Of a DNA stretch of 43,132 nt, positions 6,223 to 35,765 are shown one piece after another; within the stretch, counting starts at the first letter, position 1; the number at the start of each line of letters is the position of its first letter. The DNA is from Oscillospiraceae bacterium (GTDB lineage: Bacteria > Bacillota > Clostridia > Oscillospirales > Oscillospiraceae): NCBI GenBank assembly GCA_017541995.1, contig JAFXYD010000003.1, forward strand, positions 1-43,132, written 5' to 3'. The notes under the pieces are model-generated. The model was not told the origin of the DNA. It was given only the letters and a program-made list of their open reading frames with translations, and did no database searches. Both the position numbers and the translations under genes were made by a program.

Positions 6223-6225
6223 AGA

Positions 6226-6326: not shown

Positions 6327-6338
6327 TTTCTCTTGGAA

Positions 6339-9398: not shown

Positions 9399-9487
9399 AT
9401 AGAGTACAAATACGGATTGCTTGCGTATATTACCCGCCCTACGGGAACAGGGCGGATGATATAAATATTTCAAAAGGAGATATGACA

Positions 9488-12400
9488 ATGAAGAACACAT
9501 CGCTGTTCCGCCGGATCCTGTCGGTGGTGCTGGTTGTGGCCATGGTTCTGTCTGTGATGGTGCCCTCCATCAGCGCAGAGCAGCTTACGGCCAAGACCGG
9601 CTCCAGCGAGACCAGGGAACTGGATCTCGTCCCCATCGACCCCGGCACATTGGATTCCCGTCAGCACAGCGCTGATAAGGAAACCAATGAGGAAACGGCC
9701 TATCGCAGCACGGATGTCGTTCGTGTGTCCATCGTCCTGGAGAAGGCCTCCACTCTGGATGCCGGCTTCAAGGCCGAGAGCTACACGAGAAATCCCGCTG
9801 CCCGGGCCTACCGTGCGAGTCTCCGCGAAGAGCAGAAGGCTATGACCGCCAAGATCGAACAGGTCATCGGCGGCAAGCTGGACGTCAAGTGGAATCTGAC
9901 TCTTGCGGCAAACAACATCTCTGCGAACGTGCTCTACGGACAGATCGAGGCCATCAAGGCCATCGACGGTGTCAAGGACGTGTTCCTGGAGAATCGCTAT
10001 GAGCCTCAGGTAGACGAAGAGGCAGACGAACCCAACAACGGCTCCGCCTCCTACATGATCGGCTCCAACATCACCTGGGCCAACGGTTATACCGGCGCCG
10101 GCAGCAAGGTTGCCGTCATCGATACCGGTATCGACAGTGAGCACCAGTCCTTCTCCGGCGAGGCCCTGGAATACGCCCTGGCCCAGACCGCCGAAGAAAA
10201 GGGAATGTCTTACGATGAATACGTTGCCAGCCTGAATCTGCTGACTGCTGAGAAGATCGACGCTGTCAAGGGCGAGCTGAACGCCGCCATCGGTTCCGGC
10301 GCTGCGGCTTACCGCAACACCAAGATCGCCTACGGCTACAACTACGTTGACAAGCGCGTGGATTACATCGAGCATATGCAGGACTCCCAGGGTGAGCACG
10401 GCTCCCACGTGGAAGGCATTTCCGCAGCCAACCGCTTCATCAAGGTCGACGGCGAGTTTGTTCCCGCTCTCCAGGCCGTCGGCACCCAGGGTGTTGCCCC
10501 TGACGCCCAGATCGTCGTCATGAAGGTCTTCGGCATCGGCGGCGGCGCCTACGACTCCGATTACATTGTCGCCATCGAGGACGCCATCGTCCTGGGCTGC
10601 GACTCCGCCAACCTGTCCCTCGGCTCCGGCTCCACCGGCTTCAGCTTCTCCAGCGGTTATGAAGACACCATGAACAAGCTGGTTGAGAACGGCACTGTGG
10701 TAGCCTTCTCCGCGGGCAACAGCGGTATGTGGTACGACACCCCCAACAACTCCGCCATGGGGTATCCCTACCTGTACATCGACGACGTGAACTACGCCAC
10801 CGGCGGCAGCCCCGGCTCCTTCACCAACTCCCTGACCGTTGCCTCCGTGGACAACATGGGCCAGACCGGCCGTCCCCTGGTCTTCGGCGACCGCCACGTC
10901 TTCTACTCCGAGACCTCCGGCTACGGCAATTCTCCCATTGCCACCATCGCCGGCCAGGAGTATGAGTACGTCCTGGTGGACGGCCCCGGCGTGGACGACA
11001 ACGACCACGTGGGCCAGGAGGGTGACCAGTTCATGGCCATCGGCTCCGAGGTCCTGACCGGCAAGATCGCCATGTGCTACCGCGGCTCCTCCTCTTTCTT
11101 CGCGAAGGCCAACGCCGCCGTGGCCCAGGGTGCTGTCGGTGTCGTCATCATCAACAATGTTGACGGCGTCATCAACATGAACCTCACCGGCTACAACTAC
11201 ACCGCTCCCGCGGTCTCCATCCTGAAGGCCGACGGCGACGCCATCAAGGAAGCCTCCCAGATCGCTGTCTCTGAGAACGGCCAGGAGTACTACACCGGTA
11301 CCATGAGCATCTCCGGCGATATCGAGGTCCAGGTTCCCGAGGTCACCGACACCGTCAGCGTCTCCTCCTTCTCCTCCTACGGTCCTGGGGGCACCCTGGG
11401 CATGAAGCCTGAGATCCTGGCTCCCGGCGGCTCCATCTACTCCGTCTTTGGCGCCAACAACGGCAGCACCCCCCAGAGCGCCCATGATCAGTACGAGGTT
11501 ATGTCCGGTACCTCCATGGCTTCTCCTCAGGTTGCCGGTATGGCCGCCGTCATGGGCCAGTACATCCGGGACAACGACCTGTGCGCCAAGACCGGCCTGA
11601 GCCAGCGTCAGCTGACCAACTCTCTGCTGATGTCCACCGCCCATCCCGTGTTTGACGCCGACGGCGAGTACTGGCCCACCTTCCGTGTGGGCTCCGGTCT
11701 CGGCAACGTGGCCGACGCCACCGCCGCCAAGTCCTACATTCTGATGGACGAGAACGCCACCCTCTTCCCCGACACTGCCAAGGACGGCAAGGTCAAGGTT
11801 GAGCTGGGCGACGATCCCGACTGCGTGGGCGAGTACGAGTACTCCTTCACCGTTTACCCCATGGAGGGCTCCAAGTCCTTCACCCTGCGTACCGATCTGT
11901 TCACCCAGGCTGTGGCCGGCAACGCCGGATACGGTCTGCTGCAGTACACCGGTACCATGGCCATCGGCTCCGTTGCCACCTACGAGGTCAACGGCGAGGT
12001 CTACGAAGACACCTACGCCCTGGAGGCTGACGTCAACATGGACGGCGAGACCAACGAGGCTGACGCCCAGGCCATCCTGGACAAGCTGACCGGCGCGCTG
12101 GCCGAGGACGCCGCCTTCGACGAGGCCGCTGCCGACGTGGACGGCGACAATGCCATCACCACTGTGGACGCCAGACTGATTCTCGAGTCTGCCGCCACTC
12201 CCGTCATCACCATCACCGAGCCCACCAAGGTCACCGTCAATCTGAAGATCGACGAGGGCTGGAAGGCTCTGCTCCTTAGCCGCTACTTCACCAAGGGCTT
12301 CTTCGTCGAGGGCTACACCTACGTGGATCCCGTTGCCGACGAAGAGGGCGTGCTGGACGTTGTCCACTCCATCCCCATCCTGGGCTACTGCGGCTCCTGG

Positions 12401-15400
12401 ACGGATCCCGCCATGCTGGACCGCAGCAGCGCCATTGACGTTGCCTACGGCACCGCCAAGCAGCCCTACGTCACCAACTCCAGAGAGAGCAACTACATGA
12501 GCGTGAAGGACGCCGACGGCGACGTCTCCACCTACATGGGCAACCCCTACATGATCGAGGACGAGTTCCCCGTCGAGCGGCTGGCCCTGAACAGCGAGAC
12601 CACCATCAACGCCTTCAACTACCTGAACATCCGGAACGTGGCCACCCTGGGCTTCGCGATCCAGGACGCTGATGGCAAGGTCCTCTTTGCCCAGGCCACT
12701 CCCACCCAGAAGTACAGCGCCTACTACTACGTCAACGGCGGCACCTGGCAGAACACCACCCCCGCCAACTACAACGTGGGTAAGAAGCTGGCCTCTGCCG
12801 GTGTGAAGGAAGGCGACGTCATTACCGTTGGCTTCTATGCCCTGCCCGAGTACTACGGCGTCATCAACGCCAAGAACAACGGCCAGGTTGCCGCCACCGG
12901 TTCTCTGGACACCGCCGGCCTGACCGCCATCATTGAATCCGGCATCCTGGGCGACGGCGCGGGCATCAAGTACACCGTCACCGTGGATAACACCGCTCCC
13001 GAGGTCAAGGGCGCTCTGATGGACCTCATCACCGGCGACATCACCATCCGCGCGCAGGACAACCGCTACGTTGCCTACGTGGCCGTGATGAACAAGTCCG
13101 GCTCCAAGGTCTACATGGAGGGCGTGCCCGAGCAGACCGGCCCCAACGAGCTGGTTGAGGTTCCCCTGGAGCTGCCCGAGGGCGTGACTCTGCCCAAGGG
13201 TGAGGTCGTGCTGCTGGTTGCCGACTATGCCGGCAACGAGTCCGCCTTCAAGGTCAACCTGGGCGGCAACGGCGAGGAAGAGGACAACGGCGGCCTGATG
13301 GTCGGCTTTGTCCCCGCCGGCTCCACCGCGGCTCCCGGCAGCGGCAACCGCGCCTGGGAGATCGACAAGGACGCCCTGTGGTACAACCACGGCAACGGCA
13401 CCTATGCCGGTCTGAGCAACTACGCCAACGTGGACTTCACCGTCACCGCGGCTGAGTACGTGGACGGCTACGTCTTCATGGCGGCCGACGACGGCAATGT
13501 GTACGCCGCCGAGCTGGGCGCTCTGGACGAGGCCTCCCGCGTGGGCAGCGCCATCGACGCGGGTTATGTCTACGACATGGCCTTCAACTACACCAACAAC
13601 AACCTGTATCTGCTGGGCGATGACAACACCGTCTACAAGATGCACCTCATCACCGGCGAGCTCACCAAGGTCGCGGTTGTGACCCTGGCCGACAACGCCA
13701 GCGGAAAGATGAACCGTCTTGCCATCGACGACAACGGCGTGTTCTACACCGCCAACGACGGCAACACCGGCTCCGCCAAGCTGTACAAGTTCACCCTGGA
13801 CGACAGCGCCTACGTTCCCGAGGATCCCGACCCCGGCGAGGATCCCGTGGTGCCCGGCGAGACCACCTATGCCTGGGACTTCGAGTCTGGCGCGGACGGC
13901 TGGACCCTTGTGGACGCCGACGGCGACGGCTACAACTGGACCTGGAACCAGGACGCCGCCTCCTGGTGGTCCTCCGAGATTGATCTGGCCAGTCTTGCCC
14001 ACAACAGCACGGGCTGCATCGTCTCCGGCTCCTACATCAACACCGTGGGCGCTCTGACCCCCGACAACTGGGCGATTTCCCCGGCCATTGATCTGAGCGA
14101 GGTGAGCGCTGCCTCCGTGTCCTTCTACGCTGTGAGCGTCGATCCGGACTACCCGGAGCAGATCACCGTCTATGCGGGCACCTCTGCGGATCCCGCCGAG
14201 ATGGTTGCTGTTTCCGACGCCATCACGACGCCCGCCGAATTTGCGCAGTACACTGCCGATCTGTCCGACTTCGTCGGTGAGGAAGAGGTCTATGTGGCCC
14301 TCCGCAACAACGGCACGTCCGATATGTATCTGGCTGCCATCGACGACGTGGAGATTGTGACCGCCGCTGCTGACGGCAACGCTGCGAACCAGCCCTCCAG
14401 AAGCGGCAAGACCGTCGGTACCCGTTCCGTGAATCCCGCTGTTGTCACCGGTGAGGCTGTCTACAGCTACAGCTTCGAGAGCGAGGACGAGTTCAACGCC
14501 TGGACCCTTGTGGACAGCGACGGCGACAGCTACAACTGGATGCTCCGCAGCCAGGGCGACGGCGGCAACGACTGGGACATCAAGGACGGCGAAAAGATGA
14601 TCTTCTCCGCCTCCTACCTGGGCACCCCCCTGACCCCCGACAACTGGATCATCTCCCCCGCGATGAATTTCTCCGGGCTGGAGGACGCGACCCTGTCTGT
14701 CTGGGCTGTGGGCCAGGATCCCAGCTACGCCGAAGAGGTCTTTGCCCTCTACGCCGGCACCTCCAACAATCCGGCTGAGATGACCAAGGTCTCCGACGAC
14801 TTCACCGCCACCGGCGCGTGGACGCAGTATACCGCCGACCTGGCCGACTTTGTGGGTGAGGAAGCGGTCTACGTGGCCCTCCGCCACTACAACGTCACCG
14901 ACATGTTCTACCTCAACGCCGACCTGGTGGAGATCCTGACCGAGGGCGAGGTCCCTGTGGATCCCGATCCCGAGGATCCCGATCCCGAGGATCCCGATGA
15001 TCCTCCCGCCACCGGCGAGGACCTGGAGCCCGTGGTGGCCGAGATCACCGCGGAGCAGGTGGGCACCGCGGCGATGGGTGTGTACAACAAGTCCACCGGC
15101 GGTTCCATGGCCTGGGACCACGACAACGACCTGCTGTACCTGGTCTCCAACTGGAACGCCACCCAGGACTACGACCACTATCTGTGGACCGTGGATACCA
15201 CCACCGGCGTGGCGGCCAAGGCCAACAGTGTCAACAGCAGCTACTCCGCCCGTCTGTACGGTTCTGTCCGCGGCCTGTTCATCGTGCCCGGCAACAACCA
15301 TCTGATCTACCCCACCGACATTGCCACCGGCATGGAGGTCGAGCCCGGCGAGCTGAACCTCTTCAAGGGCCAGACCGCGGAAATCACCGTGACCCTCTAC

Positions 15401-18400
15401 CCCTGGACCCTGACCAACAAGGACGTGACCTGGGAGAGCGCTGATCCCGCCATCGCCACCGTCAAGGACGGCGTCGTCACCGGCGTGGAGGAAGGCGAGA
15501 CCGTGGTCACCGTTACCTCCGCGGCTCTGTCCGAGCTGGGCGAGCCCCATGTCATCGAGATCCCCGTTACCGTGTCCATGCCTCCCGAGGCTGAGATCCG
15601 CGGCATCATCTGGGACGAGAACGGCAAGGGCCAGGCCTCTGTGTTCAACTCCAACGCCACCCAGGAATGGACCGCCCTCTCTGAGGTGGGTCAGCTCCGC
15701 TGGGGCGCTCTGGTGGGCGACACCGTCTACGGCTCCACCGAGGACACCATGTATGCCTTTGACGCCGACACCTACGAGGTGACCCAGCTGGGCGGCATCG
15801 TCTCCATGTGGATCCCCTCCGACGCCTGCGAGCTGCCCGAGGACTTCGTGGAAGCCTTCGCGGCCATGGGCTACAACGTTGGCTCCGTCATCGGCCCCAA
15901 CAACAACGGTACCTACCTGACCATGCTGGATCCCGAGGCCGGCAGCCTGCTCTACTTCGACCTGGGCGACACCGTCTTCGGCTCCGATCCCATGGCTACC
16001 TTCACCGGCGCGGGCCGCGGCGTCTATGACGACGGCGAGTCCACCGATGAAAACGGCGCGACCTTCTATGGCCTCACGGAGAGCGGTGAGCTGTATCTGT
16101 TCACCATGAACCATGAAGGCTCCGTCATGTGGACCGACCTGGGCAACACCGGCCTGGATCTGTCCGGCGTGGCCGACGCCACCAACTCCGTCTGGGCCTC
16201 CACGGTCTATGACGCGGAGAACGAATTCCTGTACCTGTCCCTGTACAACGGCGCTGACGAGTACGCCCACCTGTACGCCATTGACGTGAACGACCTCTCC
16301 CGCGTGGGCGAGACCGGCAACTTCAATGCCGACGTGTGGCCCGTCACCGGCCTGTACGAGTACGAGCCCGCCACCGACCTGGTGCTGAAGGTCAAGCCCG
16401 AGTCTCTGGTCCTCTTCGAGGGCGAGACTGCCGAGCTGAACATCAAGGTCAAGCTGGGCGAGACCAACGAGTACACCGTGGAAGTGGCCGATGAGAATGT
16501 CTGCACCTTCGCCGACGGCGTGGTCACCGCGCTGAAGGAAGGCGAGACCACCATCACCGTAACTACCGTGGACGTCAACGAGGCCGGCGAGCACCTGAGC
16601 AAGGAGATTCCTGTCAAGGTCAAGGGCTTCAAGAGCGTTGACATCTTCGTCAACGGTCAGGTCACCGACGAGAACGGCGCCCGCTTCACCAAGATCAGCC
16701 TGGACGGCGCTGTGGTGTCCAAGAAGGGCGTCGACGCCCCCGGCAACGTCACCTCCGGTACCCGTGCCGGTGAGCTCTACGTGGCCGACATCGGCGGCAG
16801 CGTGAACATCCTGGACGCTGTGAACTTCGAGCCCAACCTGGATTGGAACAAGTTCGACACCGCCACCTACGCCGAGTACCCCGCTCTGGACTTCGCCAAC
16901 TATCCCACCTACCGGACTACCGCCGGTTTGGACGTTGACGACAAGGTTCTGATGACCACCTCCGTGGGCTGGCTGGTCAAGCCCGACTACTACGGCTGGA
17001 ACATCAGCTCCTTCATCTCCGACATGGCCGGCGTCGCCTTCGGCGGCCTGGAAGAGATGGAAGACGGCACTCTGGTGTACGACTACTACATCCTGGGCGC
17101 TGACGGAACCCTGTACTTAATGGCTGTCGATTTCGTCAACGGCCGCCGCACCGATCCGCAGGCCATCTTTAACACCGGCATCGTCCTGGCCAACCCCACC
17201 GACGCCTCCATGACCTTCGTGGCCACCGCCAAGGTGAACCCCGACGGCTCCATCAGCGAGGAGGAGTACGAGAACGCCGGTCTTGTGATCGCCGACAACG
17301 GCAGCAAGAAGCTGTGGTACCTCGACTTCATGGCTGAGGAAGAGGACGACGTCGTGGGCCTGGTGGGCATCATGGATGTGGAGAACGTCTCCGGCCTGTA
17401 CGGCACCTTCGACGAGCTGGATTCCGTCGCGGACATCCAGGGCATCGAGCCCTTCGATCCGGGTCCCGAGCCTCAGGATCCCGGCGAATACCCCGAGCCT
17501 GCCGAGGGCTTCTACAACCCCGTCGTCACCTGGGACTTCAACGACACCGTGGACGGCTGGACCTTCTTCGACCGCGACGCCGACGGCAACAACTGGATCT
17601 GGACGCCTGAGGGCGACTACAGCACCATCGCCGCCTATGAGGGCGCGGGCATGATTCTGTCCCAGTCCTACATCAACGACATCGGCGCTCTCAACCCCGA
17701 CAACTTCGCCATCAGCCCCGCCATCAACCTGGCTGATTACGACAACGCCAACATCAGCTTCTGGGCCAAGGGCCAGGATGCCAGCTACGCCGCCGAGGTC
17801 TTCGCGGTTTACGCCGGCACCAGCGCCGAGGTCGGCGAGATGGTCAAGATCAGCGACAACTTCACCGCCACCGGCAGCTGGACGCAGTACACCGCCTCCC
17901 TGGCCGACTTCGCCGGCGAGGAAGAGGTCTACGTGGCCATCCGTCACTACAGCTGCACCGACATGTACTTCCTGGACGTGGACTACGTTGAGGTTCTCAC
18001 CGAGGGCGGCGAGGCGCCTCCCGAGCCTGTGGCTCCCGTCTACGAGTGGTCCTTCGAGAACACCACCGATCTGGACGGCTGGACCCTGCTCTCCAACGAC
18101 AGCGACGCCTCCACCTGGGCCAGATACGGCGCCACCGGCGTGGCCACCCCGACCATTCCCGATGTGGGCTATGTTCTGTCCTCCACCTACAACAGCACCG
18201 CCGCTGTGGACGATCTGGCCATCACCCCGGCTCTGGACTTCTCCGAGCTGAGCAACGCCACCCTCTCCTTCTGGGTCATGAAGAACTCCACGACCTGGAA
18301 TGAGAACTACTCCGTCTACGCCGGCACCTCCGCCAACTTCGACGAGATGGAGGAGCTGGTGCCCGAGACTGCGGCAGTCAACGCCTGGACCAACGTGACC

Positions 18401-21400
18401 GTGGATCTGGCCGACTACGCCGGTGAGGAAGAGGTCTACATCGCCTTCCGCCACACCGCCCTGGCCGATCAGTTCCGCATCTACCTCGACGCTGTGGAGA
18501 TCACCACCATCGAGGAAGAAGAGCCCACGGAGCCCTTCGAGACCGTGCTTTGGGACTTCGAGGACGAGGCCCTGGACGCTGAGTGGACCATTGTGGACGT
18601 GGACGGCCAGAGCTCCTTCGAGATCCAGACCACCAACAACGCCTACTCCGGCGGCAGAGCCCTGTTCTGCTACTACGGCGATCATCCCAATGACTGGGCC
18701 ATTTCCCCCGCCATTGACCTGACCAACGCGCAGGCTCCCGAGCTCTCTGTCTACGGCAGAAAGTACGGCGGCTCCAGCTGGTACGAGTACTTCCAGCTCT
18801 ACGCCGGAACCTCCACCAACGTGGACGAGATGACCATGGTCCTCGACACCACCGAGCTGGCAGCCACCTACAGTGAGTTCGTGGCTGACCTCTCCGAGTT
18901 CGCCGGCGAGCCCGAGGTCTACGTGGCGATCCGCTACTGCAACAGCCCCGACCAGTTCGGCGTCTACTTCGACGACGTCTCCGTCCGTGAGCACACCGGC
19001 GAGGACGGCAACGCGTTCAAGCATCCCACTGCCGAGATCTCCTGCAGCTTCGTCCCGATGAAGGCTGCCGCCAAGGAGCTGAACCTCGGCTTCGGCCGTC
19101 TGGACGTGGCCCGGAACGCCGGCTCCGTGGAGATGACCAAGATCGGCGAGACCGCCAACGAGGTCACCGGCGGCACCAACGCCATCCGCGGCGAGCTGGT
19201 CAGAACGCCTGTCCGCAAGCCCGTTGACGAGACCGTCACCGAGAACGGCACCGTCCAGATCGTCCTGACGGAGGACGTGGCTGTCACCAACGGCCTGTTC
19301 ACCGTCACCTACGACGCCGAGGCCCTGAGCTTCGTGGACGCTGTCTCTACCCTGCCCTACAAGTCCATCCATCACGAGATCGTGGAGAACGAGGGCGTCA
19401 TCACCATCGCCTACGCCTCCGTGAACGAGATCCCCGCCGAGGAAGTCCTGGCGACCCTGAACTTCACCTACCCCGAGCAGACCGTCGATACCACCGTGGT
19501 CGTCAAGACCCTGGAGCGGAACGACGAGGTCGCCGTGGAGGAGGAAGAGCTGGAGATCGAGGTCAAGTTTGACCACGTCCATGACTACGGCGAGCCCGAG
19601 TGGACCTGGACCGAGGACTTCTCCGCTGCCACCGCCACCTTCACCTGCGAGTGCGGCGACGTGCAGACCGTGGAAGCCGTCGTGACCACCGAGACCGTCG
19701 ACGCCTCCTGCACCGAGGCCGGCAAGACCGTCTACACCGCGGTTGCCGTCTTCGAGGAGACCGAGTACACCGACGTCCAGGAGGTCGAGATCCCCGCCAC
19801 CGGTCATACCCCCGCTGAGCCCGTCATCGAGAACGAGGTTGCGCCTACCTGCACCGAGGCCGGCAGCTACGACGAGGTCGTCTACTGCTCCGTCTGCGGC
19901 GAGGAGCTGTCTCGCGAGACCAAGACTGTGGACGCCATCGGCCACGCCTACGGCGAGCCCGAGTGGACCTGGACCGAGGAGAACACCGCCTCCGCCAAGT
20001 TCGTCTGCGCCAACTGCGGCGACGAGCAGGTCATTGAGGCTGTTGTGAGCTCCGAGACCATCGAGCCCAGCTGCACCGAGGCCGGCAAGACCGTCTACAC
20101 CGCCGTCGCCACCTTCGAGGACGTCGAGTACACCGACACCAAGGAGATCGAGGGCGATCCCGCTCTGGGCCACAGCTACGGCGAGCCCGAGTGGACCTGG
20201 ACCGAGGACTTCACCGCCACCGCCAAGTTCGTCTGCGCCACCTGCGGCGACGAGCTGGTGCTGGATGCTGAGGTCAGCGCCAAGTACTTCGACACCAAGA
20301 CCGTCTACACCGGCGTTGTCACCCTGAATGAGACCGAGTACACCGACGAGGTGGAAGGCCCCGCTCTGGATCCCAACACCTACATCCTGACCGATGTGCT
20401 GAAGGACGGCGACCAGGTTGTCATCTACAACCCCGGCTACGGCAAGGGCGTTTCCAACGCGGACTTCTCCGCCGAGCAGCCCACTTACCGCGCCGGTGTG
20501 GACGTGGTGCCTGAGGGCGACAAGATTGTCAACCCCGAGGACGCCATCGTCTGGACTGTCCAGTACGTCTACGACGAGGAAGGCAACGCCATCGGCGTGA
20601 ACTTCATCGACGCGGAGGGCCGCAAGCTGTCCATGGACGCCAAGGGCCTGGAGCTGGATAAGGAAAATGACCTTTGGGAGATCCGCGTCCGCAGCGAGGA
20701 GGACTTCACCAGGAACATTGTGAACGTCAACGCCCAGCCCGGCAACTCCGGCGATCCCAAGGCTCTGGAGTGGTACGCCAAGTACGGCGAATTCAGCACC
20801 CACTATCTGAACGCCGACGACAGCCAGTTCATCTTCGAGCTCTATGCCAAGGTTGAGCTGGAGTCCGAGTGCAAGATCGGCCACTTTGTGGATCTGGAGG
20901 AGTACCCCCACGGTACGCCCATCCATGACGCCATCGAGTGGGCCTTCACCCACGATCCTCAGATCACCTCCGGCACCGACGAGACCCACTTCACTCCTGA
21001 GAAGGAGCTGGATCGGAAGACCGCTATGACCTTCCTGTACGCCGCCGCCGGCAAGCCTGAGTTCGACGTGGAGAGCGCGGAGAAGACCTTCTCCGACGTG
21101 AAGCCCGGCAAGTGGTACACCAAGGCCATCCTGTGGGCTGCCAACCAGGATCCCGCCATCACCGCGGGCAACACCGATGGCACCTTCGGCATCAACACCG
21201 TCTGCAAGACCGGTCATATGCTGACCTTCCTGTACGCCCAGCAGGGCAAGCCCGAGTTTGACGAGTCCGCGGTTCCCGAAGGCTATGTGGCCGAGGGCAA
21301 GTGGTACACCGCTGCCGCCAAGTGGGCTTACGTGGAGGGCATCTACAGAGCCGAGGGCGACAAGTTCGTCCAGAGCGTGCCTTGCACCCGTGCTACCACC

Positions 21401-21448
21401 GTGCTCTACCTCTACCGCGCCCTGACCGGCGAGGCCCTGGACAAGTAA
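9488..21448 (+). CDS. Giant secreted S8 (subtilisin-like) multidomain surface protease
   Basis: A 3986-residue exported protein. Order seen: signal peptide (1-30, cut after SISA); S8 domain with catalytic D212 (VIDTGID), H304 (EHGSHVEG), oxyanion N411 (SAGNSG) and S676 (GTSMASP), with a PA-type insert at about 490-600 as in lactocepin/C5a peptidase; dockerin-like pair at 847-903 (DVNMDGETNEADAQAIL and DVDGDNAITTVDARLIL); Fn3-like region; five cleaved-adhesin-like repeats at about 1461-1624, 1659-1818, 2680-2838, 2852-3008 and 3020-3168, joined by Asp/Pro/Glu linkers; Big2-like domains at about 1951-2030 and 2298-2380; cohesin-like segment at about 3252-3360; three YGEPEWTW repeats with CxC/CxxC pairs; three SLH-like repeats at about 3796-3985 for wall attachment. 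I chose the ATG at 9488 (8 bases after AAGGAG) over 9482. Likely role: degrading or binding host or dietary protein at the cell surface; substrate unknown. Confidence 0.9.
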   Translation: MKNTSLFRRILSVVLVVAMVLSVMVPSISAEQLTAKTGSSETRELDLVPIDPGTLDSRQHSADKETNEETAYRSTDVVRVSIVLEKASTLDAGFKAESYTRNPAARAYRASLREEQKAMTAKIEQVIGGKLDVKWNLTLAANNISANVLYGQIEAIKAIDGVKDVFLENRYEPQVDEEADEPNNGSASYMIGSNITWANGYTGAGSKVAVIDTGIDSEHQSFSGEALEYALAQTAEEKGMSYDEYVASLNLLTAEKIDAVKGELNAAIGSGAAAYRNTKIAYGYNYVDKRVDYIEHMQDSQGEHGSHVEGISAANRFIKVDGEFVPALQAVGTQGVAPDAQIVVMKVFGIGGGAYDSDYIVAIEDAIVLGCDSANLSLGSGSTGFSFSSGYEDTMNKLVENGTVVAFSAGNSGMWYDTPNNSAMGYPYLYIDDVNYATGGSPGSFTNSLTVASVDNMGQTGRPLVFGDRHVFYSETSGYGNSPIATIAGQEYEYVLVDGPGVDDNDHVGQEGDQFMAIGSEVLTGKIAMCYRGSSSFFAKANAAVAQGAVGVVIINNVDGVINMNLTGYNYTAPAVSILKADGDAIKEASQIAVSENGQEYYTGTMSISGDIEVQVPEVTDTVSVSSFSSYGPGGTLGMKPEILAPGGSIYSVFGANNGSTPQSAHDQYEVMSGTSMASPQVAGMAAVMGQYIRDNDLCAKTGLSQRQLTNSLLMSTAHPVFDADGEYWPTFRVGSGLGNVADATAAKSYILMDENATLFPDTAKDGKVKVELGDDPDCVGEYEYSFTVYPMEGSKSFTLRTDLFTQAVAGNAGYGLLQYTGTMAIGSVATYEVNGEVYEDTYALEADVNMDGETNEADAQAILDKLTGALAEDAAFDEAAADVDGDNAITTVDARLILESAATPVITITEPTKVTVNLKIDEGWKALLLSRYFTKGFFVEGYTYVDPVADEEGVLDVVHSIPILGYCGSWTDPAMLDRSSAIDVAYGTAKQPYVTNSRESNYMSVKDADGDVSTYMGNPYMIEDEFPVERLALNSETTINAFNYLNIRNVATLGFAIQDADGKVLFAQATPTQKYSAYYYVNGGTWQNTTPANYNVGKKLASAGVKEGDVITVGFYALPEYYGVINAKNNGQVAATGSLDTAGLTAIIESGILGDGAGIKYTVTVDNTAPEVKGALMDLITGDITIRAQDNRYVAYVAVMNKSGSKVYMEGVPEQTGPNELVEVPLELPEGVTLPKGEVVLLVADYAGNESAFKVNLGGNGEEEDNGGLMVGFVPAGSTAAPGSGNRAWEIDKDALWYNHGNGTYAGLSNYANVDFTVTAAEYVDGYVFMAADDGNVYAAELGALDEASRVGSAIDAGYVYDMAFNYTNNNLYLLGDDNTVYKMHLITGELTKVAVVTLADNASGKMNRLAIDDNGVFYTANDGNTGSAKLYKFTLDDSAYVPEDPDPGEDPVVPGETTYAWDFESGADGWTLVDADGDGYNWTWNQDAASWWSSEIDLASLAHNSTGCIVSGSYINTVGALTPDNWAISPAIDLSEVSAASVSFYAVSVDPDYPEQITVYAGTSADPAEMVAVSDAITTPAEFAQYTADLSDFVGEEEVYVALRNNGTSDMYLAAIDDVEIVTAAADGNAANQPSRSGKTVGTRSVNPAVVTGEAVYSYSFESEDEFNAWTLVDSDGDSYNWMLRSQGDGGNDWDIKDGEKMIFSASYLGTPLTPDNWIISPAMNFSGLEDATLSVWAVGQDPSYAEEVFALYAGTSNNPAEMTKVSDDFTATGAWTQYTADLADFVGEEAVYVALRHYNVTDMFYLNADLVEILTEGEVPVDPDPEDPDPEDPDDPPATGEDLEPVVAEITAEQVGTAAMGVYNKSTGGSMAWDHDNDLLYLVSNWNATQDYDHYLWTVDTTTGVAAKANSVNSSYSARLYGSVRGLFIVPGNNHLIYPTDIATGMEVEPGELNLFKGQTAEITVTLYPWTLTNKDVTWESADPAIATVKDGVVTGVEEGETVVTVTSAALSELGEPHVIEIPVTVSMPPEAEIRGIIWDENGKGQASVFNSNATQEWTALSEVGQLRWGALVGDTVYGSTEDTMYAFDADTYEVTQLGGIVSMWIPSDACELPEDFVEAFAAMGYNVGSVIGPNNNGTYLTMLDPEAGSLLYFDLGDTVFGSDPMATFTGAGRGVYDDGESTDENGATFYGLTESGELYLFTMNHEGSVMWTDLGNTGLDLSGVADATNSVWASTVYDAENEFLYLSLYNGADEYAHLYAIDVNDLSRVGETGNFNADVWPVTGLYEYEPATDLVLKVKPESLVLFEGETAELNIKVKLGETNEYTVEVADENVCTFADGVVTALKEGETTITVTTVDVNEAGEHLSKEIPVKVKGFKSVDIFVNGQVTDENGARFTKISLDGAVVSKKGVDAPGNVTSGTRAGELYVADIGGSVNILDAVNFEPNLDWNKFDTATYAEYPALDFANYPTYRTTAGLDVDDKVLMTTSVGWLVKPDYYGWNISSFISDMAGVAFGGLEEMEDGTLVYDYYILGADGTLYLMAVDFVNGRRTDPQAIFNTGIVLANPTDASMTFVATAKVNPDGSISEEEYENAGLVIADNGSKKLWYLDFMAEEEDDVVGLVGIMDVENVSGLYGTFDELDSVADIQGIEPFDPGPEPQDPGEYPEPAEGFYNPVVTWDFNDTVDGWTFFDRDADGNNWIWTPEGDYSTIAAYEGAGMILSQSYINDIGALNPDNFAISPAINLADYDNANISFWAKGQDASYAAEVFAVYAGTSAEVGEMVKISDNFTATGSWTQYTASLADFAGEEEVYVAIRHYSCTDMYFLDVDYVEVLTEGGEAPPEPVAPVYEWSFENTTDLDGWTLLSNDSDASTWARYGATGVATPTIPDVGYVLSSTYNSTAAVDDLAITPALDFSELSNATLSFWVMKNSTTWNENYSVYAGTSANFDEMEELVPETAAVNAWTNVTVDLADYAGEEEVYIAFRHTALADQFRIYLDAVEITTIEEEEPTEPFETVLWDFEDEALDAEWTIVDVDGQSSFEIQTTNNAYSGGRALFCYYGDHPNDWAISPAIDLTNAQAPELSVYGRKYGGSSWYEYFQLYAGTSTNVDEMTMVLDTTELAATYSEFVADLSEFAGEPEVYVAIRYCNSPDQFGVYFDDVSVREHTGEDGNAFKHPTAEISCSFVPMKAAAKELNLGFGRLDVARNAGSVEMTKIGETANEVTGGTNAIRGELVRTPVRKPVDETVTENGTVQIVLTEDVAVTNGLFTVTYDAEALSFVDAVSTLPYKSIHHEIVENEGVITIAYASVNEIPAEEVLATLNFTYPEQTVDTTVVVKTLERNDEVAVEEEELEIEVKFDHVHDYGEPEWTWTEDFSAATATFTCECGDVQTVEAVVTTETVDASCTEAGKTVYTAVAVFEETEYTDVQEVEIPATGHTPAEPVIENEVAPTCTEAGSYDEVVYCSVCGEELSRETKTVDAIGHAYGEPEWTWTEENTASAKFVCANCGDEQVIEAVVSSETIEPSCTEAGKTVYTAVATFEDVEYTDTKEIEGDPALGHSYGEPEWTWTEDFTATAKFVCATCGDELVLDAEVSAKYFDTKTVYTGVVTLNETEYTDEVEGPALDPNTYILTDVLKDGDQVVIYNPGYGKGVSNADFSAEQPTYRAGVDVVPEGDKIVNPEDAIVWTVQYVYDEEGNAIGVNFIDAEGRKLSMDAKGLELDKENDLWEIRVRSEEDFTRNIVNVNAQPGNSGDPKALEWYAKYGEFSTHYLNADDSQFIFELYAKVELESECKIGHFVDLEEYPHGTPIHDAIEWAFTHDPQITSGTDETHFTPEKELDRKTAMTFLYAAAGKPEFDVESAEKTFSDVKPGKWYTKAILWAANQDPAITAGNTDGTFGINTVCKTGHMLTFLYAQQGKPEFDESAVPEGYVAEGKWYTAAAKWAYVEGIYRAEGDKFVQSVPCTRATTVLYLYRALTGEALDK

Positions 21449-23211: not shown

Positions 23212-23449
23212 CTCGGCCTTCGGCCTGAATGAAGCTCGCGCTTCGCGCTGAATGAAGCCGCTCCCTGCGGTCGCTAATTTCGGAATTTGCGAATTCTCGA
23301 ATTCGCAAATGAAATTTGAATTTTTGTTTTGCAATTGGCAAATTGCAAAACTCCACAATTAGGGCGAAGCCCGGCTTCATTAGGCCGAAGGCCGGCTTCA
23401 TTAGGCCGTCAGGCCGACTTCATTCGGCTGCGCAGCAGCCGACTTCATT
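23212..23449. repeat. AATGAAG hairpin-array element, copy 1
   Basis: Between the carboxypeptidase and psuG lies a mirror-symmetric element. On the plus strand the left half has small GC-rich hairpins separated by AATGAAG (near 23226 and 23250). The right half has hairpins separated by CTTCATT (near 23374, 23395, 23418 and 23443). The AT-rich centre holds ATTTGCGAATT/AATTCGCAAAT and GTTTTGCAATT...AATTGCAAAAC palindromes. The rightmost CTTCATT, read on the minus strand, is AATGAAG and provides the TGA stop of psuG. A second copy lies at 35333-35765. Confidence 0.8.
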
Positions 23450-24371
23450 TGCACAGCGCGCAATACGCGCAGGCGGTCTTTGCCGCCAGGGCCGCGTTGT
23501 TGTAGACCAGCTGAATGTTGGAGGCCAGGCTGTCGCCGCCGGTGAGATCCTTCACCTTGGCCAGCAGATAGGGGGTGGTGGCCTTGCCGTGGATGCCCTC
23601 CTTCACGGACTGGGCAATGGCCTCGTCGATGGCCTTGTTGATCACGTCAAAGTCCATGGCGTATTCCTCGGGGATGGGGTTGGTCACCAGAATGCCGCCC
23701 TTGAGCCCCAGGTCCCGCTGGACCTTGAAGACCTTCGCCAGCTCCTCGGGGCTGTCGATGCGGTAGTCTACCTCGAAGCCGCTGCGGCGGGTGTAGAAGG
23801 CGGGCAGCTCCTTGGTGCCGTAGCCCAGCACGGGCACGCCGTGGGTCTCCAGATACTCCAGGGTGAGGCCCAGGTCCAGAATGGACTTGGCCCCGGCGCA
23901 GACTACCATCACGGGGGTGTTGGCCAGCTCCTCCAGGTCGGCGGAGATGTCCATGGTGGTCTCCGCCCCCCGGTGAACGCCGCCGATGCCGCCGGTGGCG
24001 AAGATGTTGATGCCCGCCATGTGGGCGATCATCATGGTGGTGGTGACGGTGGTGGCCCCGTCCATGCCCTTGGCGACGATCACCGGCAGATCCCGGCGGC
24101 TGGCCTTGGTGACGGCCTGGCCGGTCTTGCCCAGGTATTCGATCTCGTCCGGGGTCAGACCCGCCTTCAGCCGGCCCCCCAGAATGGCGATGGTGGCGGG
24201 CACGGCTCCGTTCTTCCGGATGACCTTCTCCACGTTCAGAGCCGTCTCCACGTTCTGGGGATAGGGCATCCCGTGGGAGATGATGGTGCTCTCCAGCGCC
24301 ACCACCGGCTTCCCGGCGGCCACCGCCGCCGCAACCTCAGGGTTTACGTCCAAATAAGCGTTCAGATTCAT
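23445..24371 (-). CDS. psuG: Pseudouridine-5'-phosphate glycosidase
   Basis: A 308-residue enzyme that reversibly splits pseudouridine 5'-phosphate into uracil and ribose 5-phosphate, the second step of pseudouridine catabolism. Family motifs are clear: ALESTIISHGMPYPQN near the start, FATGGIGGVHRGAETTMDIS with metal and phosphate ligands, and VCAGAKSILDL carrying the Schiff-base lysine. The true start is the ATG at 24371 with AAAAGGAGG in front. The open frame extends to an ATG at 24398 only because a REP in the leader contains one. The stop TGA falls inside an AATGAAG repeat. It follows psuK on the same strand, the normal psuKG order, with two REPs in the gap. Confidence 0.95.
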   Translation of the reverse strand: MNLNAYLDVNPEVAAAVAAGKPVVALESTIISHGMPYPQNVETALNVEKVIRKNGAVPATIAILGGRLKAGLTPDEIEYLGKTGQAVTKASRRDLPVIVAKGMDGATTVTTTMMIAHMAGINIFATGGIGGVHRGAETTMDISADLEELANTPVMVVCAGAKSILDLGLTLEYLETHGVPVLGYGTKELPAFYTRRSGFEVDYRIDSPEELAKVFKVQRDLGLKGGILVTNPIPEEYAMDFDVINKAIDEAIAQSVKEGIHGKATTPYLLAKVKDLTGGDSLASNIQLVYNNAALAAKTACAYCALCK

Positions 24372-24384
24372 AGTTCCTCCTTTT

Positions 24385-24438
24385 GTAGGGGCGGTCATTG
24401 GCCGCCCGCAATTCCGTAGGGGCGGTCATTGGCCGCCC
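24385..24438 (+). repeat. Two GTAG REPs between psuK-RAYT and psuG
   Basis: Two copies (24385-24407 and 24416-24438) of GTAG plus the GGGCGG...CCGCCC hairpin, in plus orientation and 31 bases apart. They face the minus-oriented array on the other side of the RAYT coding segment. They lie in the psuG leader, just before its ribosome binding site, so they could also affect psuG expression. Confidence 0.92.
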
Positions 24439-24452
24439 GAAAAACCTGTCGT

Positions 24453-24912
24453 CTAATGCGGACTGACGTAATAATCGTCCGTTTTCCATTTTGCGGGATT
24501 GTATTCGATATATTCTCCGGCAGCTTGGAAATCCGCCTCTGAGCGGATCACCTGATCGTAAAATCCTTTCTGCCAGATTTTTGTTCCCGCCTTCTTTGTC
24601 ACGGCGCCTTTCAATTGATTGATGATCCAGGAAACGCTTGGATTTTCCTGTTCGGTGGAAAGCCGCAGCAGCAGATGGACGTGATTTGGCATGACGCAGT
24701 ATCGCACGATCTCAACGGTGGGATAATGGACCGGGATCGCAAGGATCGCCTGTTCCACCATCTGCCCCAGGGGATAGAGCCGCAGCTGCTGGGTATCCGC
24801 GCCTTCATATACCTGGCTGAAAACACATTTTCGCCCCTCCGTACAGAGCACAATATGGTACGCGCCGCCCTGGGTGTAATCATAAGCCTCCAGGCGATTT
24901 CGCTTGCGGCGC
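24453..24912 (-). mobile_element. RAYT (Y1/HUH transposase) coding segment
   Basis: This is the transposase portion of the fused frame, about 152 residues, near full length for a RAYT. RAYTs are single-copy, domesticated relatives of IS200/IS605 transposases that cut and rejoin REP hairpins through a tyrosine nucleophile, recognising a GTAG-type tetranucleotide at the hairpin foot. GTAG-footed hairpins lie on both sides in opposite orientations. The first codons of the domain (CGCCGCAAGCGAAATCGC) directly abut the last REP, so the ancestral start codon appears to have been replaced. Confidence 0.88.
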
Positions 24913-26276
24913 GGGCGGCCAATGACCGCCCCTACAGTTTGGGCCTCCGGGGATTGCGGCGGGCGGCCAATGACCGCCCCTACAGCTTGGGCCTCCGAGG
25001 GTTGCGGCGGGCGGCCGATGACCGCCCCTACAGTTTGGGCCTCCGGGGGTTGCGGCGGGCGGCCGATGACCGCCCCTACAGCTTGGGCCTCCGGGGGTTG
25101 CGGCGGGCGGCCGATGACCGCCCCTACAGCTTGGGCCTCCGGGGATTGCGGCGGGCGGCCGATGACCGCCCCTACAGTTTGGGCCTCCGGGGGTTGCGGC
25201 GGGCGGCCGATGACCGCCCCTACAGTTTGGACCTCCGGGGGTTGCGGCGGGCGGCCGATGACCGCCCCTACAGCTTGGGTCTCCGTGGGTTGCGGCGGGC
25301 GGCCGATGACCGCCCCTACAGCTTGGGCCTCCGGGGGTTGCGGCGGGCGGCCAATGACCGCCCCTACAGCGCGTTCCCTGGCTGCGGCATAACACAATGC
25401 GGGGTTGACGGTTTCGGGGCTTTCAACGGCCAGACTGCCGCAGGCCAGGGCGAAGCGGGCGGCTGCTTCGATGGGCAGGCCGTCCAGGTAGGCCCGGACG
25501 AAGCCCGCGGTCATGGCGTCGCCGCCGCCGCTGGCGTTGACCAGCCGGGTCTCCGGGCAGGGCGCCAGGCAGCGCTCCGTGTCCCAGGCGCAGTAGACGC
25601 CCCGGCTCCCCAGGGAGACGCAGAGCCGCCGCAGTCCCGTCTGCAGCAGCTTGGCCGCGGCCAGCTCCAGGCTGTTCCGGTCCGTGATCCGCACGCCGGA
25701 CAGGGCCTCCGCCTCCACCCGGTTGGGCTTCAGACTGAAAAGCCGCCCCAGCACGGGCCGCAGCTTCTCCCCCTTGCGGACGGAAACCGGGTCCGCGAAG
25801 AGGGGCGCGCGGACTCGCTCCGCCAGGAAGGCAATGGCCTGCTCCGTCAGATTGGCGTCCAGCACCACCGCCGCGGCCCCGTTCAGCAGCTCCAGCTGCT
25901 CTTCCAGATAGGCCGGGGTGATCTCTTCCGCCAGGCGGTTGTCGCAGAGGGCCAGCTCCATATCGCCCTCGGGGCCCTCAATGGCCAGATAGCCGGAGGT
26001 GATGCCCTCCGGAACGTAGCGGGCGCGGCTGAGATCTATGCCCGCGGCCTTGCAGGAGCCGCGGATCAACCCCTCCCAGCGATCCCCCGCCAGGGCGGTG
26101 AGCAGGAAGACCGGAACCCCCAGCAGGGCCAGATTGTGGGCCGCGTTCCGGCCCACACCCCCCGGGGAGAGCCGCAGCTGCCCGGGGTTGGAGTCCCGGG
26201 GGATCAGCGGCCCGAAGGCCTTGCCGCAGACGTCGATATTGATTCCGCCGACCACGGCGACATAGGGCTGCTTCAT
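24453..26276 (-). CDS. psuK: Pseudouridine kinase fused through a REP array to a RAYT transposase
   Basis: One 607-residue frame with three parts. Residues 1-301 are a complete PfkB-family pseudouridine kinase, which phosphorylates pseudouridine using ATP: GGVGRNAAHNLALLG and NASGGGDAMTAGF with the catalytic base at D253. Residues 302-455 are ten 16-residue repeats of the type GRPPQPPEAQAVGAVI, the translation of a 48-bp repeat carrying REPs. Residues 456-607 are a REP-associated tyrosine transposase: RRKRNRLEAYDYTQGGAYHI start, MPNHVHLLL with the HUH pair H532/H534, WQKGFYDQVIRSE, and YIEYNP with candidate nucleophile Y589 (or Y592). The ATG at 26276 follows GGAGGTG. The RAYT part has no ATG of its own near its beginning. 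Kinase function is expected from the adjacent psuG; whether the fusion is made, cleaved or active is unknown. Confidence 0.85.
   Translation of the reverse strand: MKQPYVAVVGGINIDVCGKAFGPLIPRDSNPGQLRLSPGGVGRNAAHNLALLGVPVFLLTALAGDRWEGLIRGSCKAAGIDLSRARYVPEGITSGYLAIEGPEGDMELALCDNRLAEEITPAYLEEQLELLNGAAAVVLDANLTEQAIAFLAERVRAPLFADPVSVRKGEKLRPVLGRLFSLKPNRVEAEALSGVRITDRNSLELAAAKLLQTGLRRLCVSLGSRGVYCAWDTERCLAPCPETRLVNASGGGDAMTAGFVRAYLDGLPIEAAARFALACGSLAVESPETVNPALCYAAARERAVGAVIGRPPQPPEAQAVGAVIGRPPQPTETQAVGAVIGRPPQPPEVQTVGAVIGRPPQPPEAQTVGAVIGRPPQSPEAQAVGAVIGRPPQPPEAQAVGAVIGRPPQPPEAQTVGAVIGRPPQPSEAQAVGAVIGRPPQSPEAQTVGAVIGRPRRKRNRLEAYDYTQGGAYHIVLCTEGRKCVFSQVYEGADTQQLRLYPLGQMVEQAILAIPVHYPTVEIVRYCVMPNHVHLLLRLSTEQENPSVSWIINQLKGAVTKKAGTKIWQKGFYDQVIRSEADFQAAGEYIEYNPAKWKTDDYYVSPH
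24913..25371 (-). repeat. Array of ten 48-bp REP-containing units inside a coding frame
   Basis: Ten units begin at 24913, 24961, 25009, 25057, 25105, 25153, 25201, 25249, 25297 and 25345, exactly 48 bp apart. Each has a 23-base hairpin with CTAC at its end (GTAG on the minus strand) plus a well-conserved 25-base spacer of the type TTTGGGCCTCCGG-TTGCGGC. The two units at one end and the one at the other carry CCAATGA, and the seven inner ones CCGATGA. The period is a multiple of three, so the psuK frame stays open throughout. Confidence 0.95.
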
Positions 26277-26348
26277 ATTGACACCTCCACCCCATATTGT
26301 ATCACATTTGCCGGAGCTTGGCAATCCCGTTTTCGCCGGAAATGGGGC

Positions 26349-26377
26349 TTGACAGATGGCCCCGGGCATGATATACT
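26349..26377 (+). promoter_or_regulatory. Sigma-A promoter of uraA
   Basis: TTGACA at 26349-26354, a 17-base spacer and TATACT at 26372-26377. Transcription would start near 26384, giving a leader of about 130 bases before uraA. Confidence 0.85.
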
Positions 26378-26437
26378 TGCCTGCGAAAAGTCTGAAGGCG
26401 GGAGTGAACGGCCGAAAGGACCGCTCAAAACGCTGAC

Positions 26438-26469
26438 ACGTACCCGTCTGATGACAGGGTACGTTTTTT
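26438..26469 (+). terminator. Attenuator-type terminator in the uraA leader
   Basis: ACGTACCC (26438-26445) pairs with GGGTACGT (26457-26464), followed by TTTTT. It lies between promoter and start codon, so it must be conditional. An upstream hairpin (GAGTG/CGCTC, about 26402-26425) may be the sensing part. A PyrR- or ligand-dependent switch is plausible for a pyrimidine permease, but I see no convincing PyrR site or known riboswitch consensus. Confidence 0.75.
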
Positions 26470-26514
26470 CATTTTGCCCCGTGTCCCCGCAAGAAAAGAA
26501 AGAGAGGAACGATC

Positions 26515-27942
26515 ATGAAGCTCATTTACGGCATCAAAGACAAGCCCAAGGTTTCCCAGCGCATTGTGTTCGCCTTCCAGCAGGTTCTGGCAATTATGGC
26601 CGCTACCCTGGCCGTCCCCGCTGTGGTCAACGGCGCCATGGGCAGCGAAATGGACCCCGCCGCCGCCCTCTGCGGCGCCGGCGTCGGCACCATCATCTAT
26701 CTGCTCTTCACCCGCTCCAAGAGCCCCGTCTTCCTGGGCTCCTCCTTCGCCTTCATCGGCTCCATGTGCTCCGCCTTCGCCGGCGCGGCCTCCATGGCCC
26801 TGGGCTATCTGGGCCTCATCCTCGGCGCCGCCCTGGCCGGTCTGGTCTACGTGGTGCTGGCCGTCTTCGCCAAGACCCTGGGCACCGACTGGCTCAACAA
26901 GCTGATGCCCCCCGTGGTCATCGGGCCCACCGTGGCCATCATCGGCCTGTCCCTGGCCCCCAACGCCATTGCCGACCTGCTCAAGAGCTCCGTCACCACC
27001 CAGACCATGGAGTACGCCATTGAGCTGCGCAGCGGCATCCCCACCATCGTGGAAAACCTGGTGGACACCGCCACCGGCTCCGTCTACGTCTGCCTGGCCT
27101 GCGGCCTGGTGACCCTCTTCACCACCGTCCTCTTCGCCACCTACGGCAAGAAAATGGCCCGGCTGATCCCCTTCATCCTGGGCATCCTGGCGGGCTATCT
27201 CTGCGCCTGCGTGTTCTACCTCATCGGCGACGCCGTGGGCAAGGATTCTCTGAAGGTCATCAGCTTCCAGCCCTTTGTGAACTGCTTCTCCAGCCTGAGC
27301 CTGGCCTCCTTCCTGTCTGTGCCCCGCTTCACCTTCCTGCAGACCAAGGGCGCCTTCGGCGAGCTGAACCTGTCCTACTTCATCACCCTCTTCACCGCCT
27401 ACGTGCCCGTGGCCTTCGTGGTCTTTGCCGAGCACCTTGCCGACCACAAGAACCTCTCCACCATCGTGGAGAAGGATCTGCTGAAGGAGCCCGGCCTGCA
27501 CCGGACCCTGCTGGGCGACGGCGTGGGCTCTATGGCGGGCGCCTTCTTCGGCGGCTGCCCCAACACCACCTACGGCGAGTCCATCGGCTGCGTGGCCATC
27601 ACCGGCAACGCCTCCATCGTCACCATCTGGTACGCCGCGGTCATGTGCGTTGCCATCTCCTTCCTGTCCCCCTTCATCGCCTTCCTGGAGTCCATCCCCT
27701 CCTGCGTCATGGGCGGCGTCTGCATCGCCCTCTACGGCTTCATCGCCGTCTCCGGTCTGAAGATGCTCCAGAACGTGGATCTCAACGAGAACCGCAATCT
27801 CTTCACCGCCTCCGTGATCCTCATCACCGGCGTGGGCGGCCTGATCGTGAAGATCGGCGCCGTGGAGATCCGCACCGTGGCCTGCGCCCTGATCCTGGGC
27901 ATCGCGGTCAACAAGCTGCTGGGAAGAAAAAAGAAGGCCTAG
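26515..27942 (+). CDS. uraA: Uracil/xanthine permease (NCS2 family)
   Basis: A 475-residue nucleobase:cation symporter of the NCS2/UraA type with about 14 membrane segments. Signatures: QQVLAIMAATLAVPAVV in helix 1, FLGSSFAFIG in the helix 3 substrate segment, VVFAEHLADHKNLS in helix 8 with the substrate-binding Glu, and GGCPNTTYGESIGCVAIT in helix 10. SCVMGGVCIALYGFIAVSGL is typical of uracil carriers. It sits next to the divergent psuK-psuG genes, whose pathway releases uracil, so a pyrimidine-salvage grouping makes sense. GAGAGGA precedes the ATG. Uracil is the favoured substrate; xanthine is not excluded. Confidence 0.9.
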   Translation: MKLIYGIKDKPKVSQRIVFAFQQVLAIMAATLAVPAVVNGAMGSEMDPAAALCGAGVGTIIYLLFTRSKSPVFLGSSFAFIGSMCSAFAGAASMALGYLGLILGAALAGLVYVVLAVFAKTLGTDWLNKLMPPVVIGPTVAIIGLSLAPNAIADLLKSSVTTQTMEYAIELRSGIPTIVENLVDTATGSVYVCLACGLVTLFTTVLFATYGKKMARLIPFILGILAGYLCACVFYLIGDAVGKDSLKVISFQPFVNCFSSLSLASFLSVPRFTFLQTKGAFGELNLSYFITLFTAYVPVAFVVFAEHLADHKNLSTIVEKDLLKEPGLHRTLLGDGVGSMAGAFFGGCPNTTYGESIGCVAITGNASIVTIWYAAVMCVAISFLSPFIAFLESIPSCVMGGVCIALYGFIAVSGLKMLQNVDLNENRNLFTASVILITGVGGLIVKIGAVEIRTVACALILGIAVNKLLGRKKKA

Positions 27943-35337: not shown

Positions 35338-35765
35338 AGACCGGCTTCGCCGGAATGAAGTCGGCCTGACGGCCTAATGAAGCCGCAGTCGGCTGAGGCC
35401 TCCTGCTGAATGAAGCCGCTCCCGATGGTCGCTAATTATGGTATTTGCGAATTAGCGAATTCGCAAATGAAATTTGAAATGGCGGGCTGATAGCCCGCGC
35501 TACAGCGGAATAAGGCGTAGTGGCCGCTGACCTCAGCGGCCATACCAAGCGATTTCTGCCTCTTCCCGATGGCCGCCGGGGTCGGCGGCCACTACGGACA
35601 AGCGCTGCTGAATCGATTATTTTGTTTTGCAATTGGCAAATTGCAAAACTCCACAATTAGGGCGAAGCCCGACTTCATTAGGCCGCAGGCCGGCTTCATT
35701 CGCCCCGAAGGGGCAGCTTCATTAGGCCGCCAGGCCGACTTCATTCGGGGCAACGCCCCGACTTT
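35333..35765. repeat. AATGAAG hairpin-array element, copy 2
   Basis: The 442-base gap between the MBL gene and apbE contains no gene. It starts with AATGAAG at 35333-35339, whose TGA is the MBL stop. Hairpins separated by AATGAAG follow, then an AT-rich core (ATTTGCGAATT...AATTCGCAAAT), and after an inserted REP cluster the GTTTTGCAATT...TTGCAAAAC palindrome, CCACAATT, and hairpins separated by CTTCATT up to about 35765. Core and several arms match copy 1 at 23212-23449. It ends just before the apbE ribosome binding site (GAGGTG). Confidence 0.82.
35481..35619. repeat. REP triplet inserted inside the AATGAAG element
   Basis: Three GTAG-footed hairpins: minus at 35481-35503 (GCGGGCT/AGCCCGC), plus at 35517-35542 (TGGCCGCTGA/TCAGCGGCCA) and minus at 35570-35595 (TGGCCGCC/GGCGGCCA). 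Copy 1 of the host element reads straight through from AAATTTGAA to TTTTGTTTTGC, while here about 140 bases intervene, so this block appears to have entered the older element. Confidence 0.8.

Follow-up and report, generated by a model that had tools for sequence, protein, structure and literature searches.

One open reading frame joins a pseudouridine kinase, an in-frame REP array and a RAYT transposase in an Oscillospiraceae genome

Organization of the psuK-psuG locus

Whether a domesticated transposase can be supplied to the cell as the C-terminal part of a metabolic enzyme, or whether a frame that joins the two marks a transposase gene on its way to loss, is the question raised by one locus in an Oscillospiraceae genome. 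The available part of PMC8049555 describes RAYTs as domesticated transposases that occur in single copy, are inherited vertically and have no precisely known function. In the window (the whole stretch of 43,132 nucleotides analyzed here), the original prediction placed at positions 24453-26276 an unbroken frame leading from a complete pseudouridine kinase (PsuK) through ten 48-bp REPs into a nearly full-length RAYT. These coordinates proved correct, with the feature on the minus strand, and zero stops occur in frame from psuK through the array and the RAYT (607 codons), the latter being complete. The HVH and YIEYNP motifs lay where they had been placed (residues 532-534 and 589-594). The features of the locus are as follows.

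26276-24453, minus strand: fused frame (PsuK/REP linker/RAYT) of 607 codons, with ATG at 26276 and stop at 24455-24453
25368-26276, minus strand: psuK part, pseudouridine kinase of the PfkB family, residues 1-303 (profile and structure-sequence matches)
24912-25367, minus strand: REP array of ten GTAG-tagged REPs (nine full 48-bp units and the last REP), residues 304-455
24453-24911, minus strand: RAYT (TnpA-REP) part, residues 456-607 and stop, with HVH at 532-534 and Y589 in YIEYNP
24921-24923, minus strand: ATT codon (I452) in the last REP, candidate non-standard internal start proposed from the sequence
24416-24439, plus strand: inverted REP (iREP) 3' of the RAYT (pattern match)
24385-24408, plus strand: second iREP, adjoining the psuG ribosome-binding site (pattern match)
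23445-24371, minus strand: psuG, with its own AGGAGG (Pfam Indigoidine_A, E=1.5e-134)
26296-26324, minus strand: sigma-70-like promoter match 5' of psuK, TTGCCA-17-TACAAT (10/12, consensus match only)

The fused frame sits between the psuK and psuG positions, the latter identified through the Pfam family Indigoidine_A, which we take to be PsuG. It is very probably what the ribosome reads, as one protein. Terminator-like sites near the locus showed no excess over shuffled sequence (3 versus a mean of 2.9), and a search of a plasmid collection returned zero matches.

Other features of the window were recorded in passing. A divergent region at 26340-26500 separates psuK from a xanthine/uracil permease gene (26515-27942, plus strand); it holds a promoter match of 11/12 and a hairpin-like sequence before a T run, with no Rfam match. 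The sole Rfam match at gathering threshold in the window was a TPP riboswitch (6224-6335, plus strand). A frame of 3,988 aa (9482-21448, plus strand) contains subtilase, PA, Big_2 and hyaluronate-lyase-like beta-sheet stretches and four Cleaved_Adhesin stretches, indicating a giant protease-like protein that is probably secreted. Two arrays of the same 21-bp unit, ATTAGGCCGCAGGCCGACTTC, at 23358-23449 and 35656-35745, represent a second small repeat family.

Identity of the two halves

Profile searches of both halves, which the original prediction had proposed, matched Pfam PfkB (E=3.3e-42) and Pfam Y1_Tnp (E=1.3e-7), respectively. For the PsuK half, the best NCBIfam model was PRK09850 (218 bits, under its cut-off of 540), and the E. 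coli PsuK structure 7vkp matched residues 3-297 (E=8.3e-61). Counted on the printed alignment, 13 of the 14 PsuK residues named in the available text of PMC9247573 are identical, catalytic D256 included; the base-contacting M114 is Asn in the fused protein. By its PfkB family, substrate residues, catalytic Asp and psuG neighbor, this half is a PsuK, with pseudouridine activity predicted.

The RAYT half matched the NCBIfam model REP_Tyr_transpos at E=3.3e-15, with 56 bits against a cut-off of 80, a threshold under which matches to this model fell in 146 of the 150 matching genomes of the order. Its HUH motif and a catalytic Tyr in a Y---NP context, which the accessible portion of PMC6006769 gives as the class 2 TnpA-Y1 context, assign it at the sequence level to class 2. 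The 152 RAYT codons carry no stop or frameshift, and both HVH and Y589 are kept. An AlphaFold model of the RAYT half alone (residues 444-607, aligned with 26 relatives) had a pLDDT of 82.9 and a pTM of 0.77, with the first 13 modeled residues, 12 of them REP-coded, at pLDDT under 50. The best Foldseek match to this model was 4er8, a REP-bound RAYT (E=3.7e-8, TM 0.63), which the sequence profile of this half also matched (E=3.8e-13). The model indicates that the RAYT half folds like TnpA-REP 4er8, with cleavage at CT predicted; the E. coli TnpA-REP cleaves at a CT on the 5' or 3' side of the REP, as described in the part of PMC8266576 consulted. A joint alignment of the fusion, PsuKs and RAYTs was set aside (mean column identity of 22%).

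Start codon of the RAYT

It had been suggested that RAYTs are normally free-standing genes and that this one lacks a start codon near its N-terminus. A start of their own proved to be the norm for RAYTs, and the lack of a standard one here stood. We scanned 59 RAYT rows including the window's, 53 of them full-length, leaving out short fragments (G003:C11 and two of G023:C47). An ATG lay at most 20 codons upstream in 50 of the 53 full-length matches, within 1-6 codons in 42 of these 50, and in L060 and L076 a GTG or TTG, with no ATG, occupied that interval (52/53 overall). The fused RAYT was the only one with none of the three; its nearest candidate is a TTG 159 codons upstream, inside psuK. 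In a wider set of 80 loci (71 of 81 rows full-length), an ATG was found within 25 codons in 62 and only GTG or TTG in 8, so that 70 of the 71 had a start in that range, the sole exception (L140) beginning 8 codons after a stop.

Within the fused frame, no ATG, GTG or TTG occurs between codon 294 (in psuK) and codon 476, and the GTG at codon 476 would cut the fold because it lies within beta-strand 1 of the model (model positions 28-36, equivalent to 471-479). A RAYT is expected to be a gene with its own start codon, and the fused RAYT was found without a standard one. As read from the sequence, the RAYT protein is reachable by the standard route only as a PsuK fusion, because its coding part has no standard start of its own.

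Structure of the REP array

The REP unit of the array reads GTAGGGGCGGTCAT[T/C]GGCCGCCCG, in ten copies with a 48-bp period, the tenth of which abuts the RAYT directly. The REP pattern (up to 3 mismatches) had 17 matches in the window compared with a mean of 0.01 in shuffles, and its hairpin has a 7-bp stem at -8.6 kcal/mol (folded as DNA) in both variants. With a short hairpin, a 5' GTAG and a high copy number (203 in G000, the window's genome), the array repeat is a GTAG-tagged REP. A CT precedes the GTAG in 10 of the 10 array copies, including at the psuK junction (CGCGCT/GTAG). Since ten REPs upstream and two iREPs downstream of the same family flank the RAYT, the locus is a REPtron.

A Pro-rich linker had been predicted from the REPs, and the ten in-frame copies do encode it. 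Because the REPs are read in the phase GTA-GGG, their TAG falls out of frame and psuK reads on. The 30-base spacer pattern (up to 3 mismatches) matched only the fused array within G000 (9/9), which argues that the copies arose locally; the longest exact repeat inside the array is 80 bp. No stop interrupts the array in four of the six frames, including two of the three on the fused-frame strand, and an open frame through it is not rare in itself. With two of three frames open on that strand, the RAYT would fall in the psuK frame by chance about 1 time in 3 by our estimate, and because the unit of 48 bp is 3 x 16, the joined frame is independent of copy number. What has to be explained is that the RAYT lies in the psuK frame, that psuK lacks its stop and that the RAYT has no standard start. 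Compared with their own consensus in the psuK frame, the nine full units differed at 2 synonymous and 10 nonsynonymous positions, several of these being the same change repeated, and the linker amino acids therefore give no sign of constraint in this comparison of sequences.

The psuK-psuG locus in related genomes

The original prediction had also proposed a look for psuK ending before the array in relatives. In the 15 other genomes of the genus with psuK, the frame from the match start runs 301-321 aa to a stop, so that psuK ends at about 305 aa. All 13 genus relatives whose contig reaches that far have psuG directly after psuK on the same strand; in G006 and G021 the stretch stops 110 bp past psuK at the contig end, and G007 and G010 have other repeats in the gap between psuK and psuG. 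The PsuK of G013 is extended by three inverted REPs and that of G002 by a decayed copy, so the window is not alone in having REPs read as a PsuK tail. Of 39 genomes, only that of the window had a match spanning both the PsuK domain and a RAYT. Among the matches listed for 394 genomes of the order, the window's RAYT open frame was the longest (671), the next being a RAYT::NIF3 frame in G271 (463); two other long frames (L179 and L180) have their own ATG, and L181 matches part of a RAYT only, at 28%.

In G002, the gap between psuK and psuG contains two iREPs, the broken 3' end of a RAYT and a decayed REP whose orientation and phase match those in the window. This remnant is identical to the window RAYT at 74 of 100 columns (74%), compared with 71/105 (68%) for the RAYT of G006 and 71/108 (66%) for that of G004. 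Between G000 and G002, psuK had dS 0.57 and dN 0.27, and psuG had dS 0.50 and dN 0.03. A G000 plus G002 clade was rejected in psuK and psuK+psuG trees (p-AU of 0.0001, 0.0011 and 0.0002, for a pair chosen after the first tree was seen). We therefore rejected the remnant as proof of one old insertion, since the two genomes form no clade and since its identity to the window RAYT barely exceeds that of the G006 and G004 RAYTs. It is compatible with two insertions, with transfer, and with a single shared insertion followed by losses. What G002 does show is that a REPtron of this kind once stood at psuK-psuG in another lineage, which does not date the window insertion.

RAYT clade and REP numbers

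In a tree of 54 RAYTs, the window RAYT grouped with L039 (G006) and L027 (G004) with support of 94/90. These were also the only 3 of the 59 RAYT rows with a REP of the array type within 1 kb (for L027 on the 3' side only), in a scan for which the available stretch was shorter for some rows. L039 is an intact gene lying between REPs, and its own ATG follows a GGAGG. L027 is without its N-terminal part and start, its 5' end being replaced by other sequence, and G004 keeps many REPs, indicating that REPs can persist where the RAYT found is broken. The other two RAYTs of G000 (on C98 and C119) belong to different clades, and the array-type REP is absent nearby.

The fused RAYT departs from 3 of 29 near-invariant positions, and 23 of the 27 rows compared have 0-2 departures. 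Elsewhere, truncated L027 departs at 3/23, L068 at 3/29 and the own-start sister L039 at 4/28, and one fused-RAYT departure (W to G) is common to both clade mates. A divergent clade and slight relaxation would explain these departures equally well, and they decide nothing. Synonymous sites were saturated between the G000 and G006 RAYTs, so that dN/dS was of no use.

The array-type REP is present in 16 of 23 genus genomes, G000 having the most. REP matches on both strands (up to 1 mismatch) numbered 203 in G000, 172 in G004, 66 in G017, 63 in G006, 56 in G010, 50 in G008, 47 in G007 and 18 in G002, in counts that favor G000 because the pattern was taken from the window and that count fully palindromic copies twice where these match both strands (G008:C33, and beside L027 in G004). 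Exact TCAT[T/C] copies numbered 132 in G000, 27 in G010, 22 in G004, 17 in G007, 11 in G021 and 6 in G002. These figures suggest that the array-type REP expanded in the window's lineage, with the fused RAYT or an unfused forerunner as the only candidate source found there. Either was probably active not long ago, given REP counts of 203 versus 18, exact copies of 132 versus 6, and the lack of the repeat near the other RAYTs of G000; another cognate RAYT may be missing from G000, as this is a 122-contig draft that is 78% complete.

Several contigs of G000 (C2, C33, C46, C47, C74 and C78), as well as the window (22-103), start in REPs, mostly in pairs 58 bp apart, and longer REP pairs thus seem to break the assembly.

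Proposed origin and possible function of the fusion

The history that we favor would begin with a REPtron, a RAYT gene between its own REP and iREP repeats, seated between psuK and psuG. Its 5' REP would have fused to the final codons of psuK with loss of the stop, and local tandem growth would then have produced ten copies at 48-bp spacing, the last of which would lead directly into the RAYT at the point where a start codon stands in other RAYTs. The psuK promoter, ribosome-binding site and start would now yield one 607-aa protein comprising PsuK, a REP-coded linker and the RAYT. PsuK would presumably still work with this tail, and if the RAYT half still cuts REPs, expression of the pseudouridine operon would govern REP copying. 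We hold tentatively, at a little under an even chance, that the fusion also serves as a functional source of RAYT. An extended form, in which a domesticated RAYT is made only as a C-terminal fusion to the kinase, its own REPs serve as both linker and ten DNA targets, REP copying follows pseudouridine supply and PsuK dimerization pairs the RAYT domains, appears unlikely.

An accidental fusion to a dying RAYT is nearly equally likely as a functional one. Array growth would have destroyed the RAYT start, the frame would be open by chance, the tail would be useless to PsuK and perhaps proteolysed, and the RAYT would be a very young pseudogene. The same four observations that speak for this account weigh against a functional fusion: the number of open frames through the array, its excess of nonsynonymous over synonymous differences, the changed near-invariant RAYT positions, and the decay of RAYTs in G004 and G002. 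A young loss would also leave the frame open, as 64% of simulated neutral copies were stop-free at 0.02 substitutions per site. An accidental fusion is harder to reconcile with a RAYT that has lost no HUH or Tyr residue and has acquired no frameshift or stop, and the changed positions lose weight given that W to G is common to both clade mates and that L039 departs more often with its own start. If the fusion were as old as the G002 remnant (psuG dS of 0.50, about 0.25 per lineage), an age that is not established, open frames would survive in only about 1-3% of neutral copies; with three histories remaining for that remnant, this argument is conditional only.

It is improbable that the RAYT is made separately from a non-standard start codon, for which the simplest candidate is the last REP's ATT (24923-24921). 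This ATT has AGGGG five bases upstream and lies about where relatives have their ATG, which in most RAYT matches stands 1-6 codons before the match. However, initiation at ATT is rare and weak, a standard candidate exists for every one of the other 52 full-length matches, and in the REP folded as DNA the ATT is in the hairpin loop with AGGGG partly in the stem, which may disfavor its use. An assembly artefact, in which REPs common to psuK and a RAYT locus led to their being joined, is very improbable even for a 122-contig draft with several contigs beginning in REPs, since the spacer is found only in the fused array, exact repeats inside it reach only 80 bp, G002 has its decayed REP, RAYT 3' remnant and iREPs at the same site, and two matching misjoins would be needed because the psuK and psuG sides are both syntenic with relatives.

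Relation to known systems

The locus resembles the REPtron of the E. coli TnpA-REP (4er8) in its HUH-Y1 core, HVH, Y---NP, flanking REP and iREP, GTAG hairpin and CT before GTAG, and differs from it in that the window RAYT stands in frame behind a host gene without its own standard start. REPs inside genes are already known. In the available sections of PMC3733652, GTAG REPs often supply the TAG stop to neighboring ORFs, and REP DNA is translated inside ORFs, with larger clusters encoding 43-82 aa. The window shares translation of REP DNA within an ORF with these intragenic REPs and with Rickettsia palindromic elements, whereas the 152 aa encoded by its ten copies connect a host enzyme with a RAYT that is flanked by the same repeats. 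The TnpA-Y1 proteins of unexpected length treated in the accessible part of PMC6006769 likewise have a RAYT-type domain in an over-long frame, and were discarded there as gene fusions or annotation errors. The RAYT::NIF3 frame of G271 (L178:2085-3410) also holds a host gene and a RAYT in one frame with the same order, but its RAYT is upstream with its own ATG, NIF3 has an ATG at the junction, and no REP array lies between. Among the matches listed in a literature search of titles and abstract openings, which covered few subscription papers, none described a REP array linking a host gene to its RAYT.

Translated tandem repeats were also seen within RAYT cores. The core of the RAYT::NIF3 frame (L178:2085-3410, plus strand) holds a repeat of GDGRQVAAI, and a second RAYT (L078:1776-2429, plus strand) is split by a repeat of GDRTGNPSATE between its two core halves, resembling the repeat-driven insertions of subclass 2.4 in the portion of PMC6006769 available.

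Implications

If the fusion is accidental, it would illustrate a simple route by which REP growth turns neighbors into fusion genes, and such a step may precede RAYT loss. If the RAYT is made only within the host enzyme, the locus would offer a natural example of RAYT expression tied to a known operon, and the effect of RAYT dosage on REP number would be directly testable. It would also mean that a repeat family can supply the linker by which a host protein and the family's own transposase are joined.
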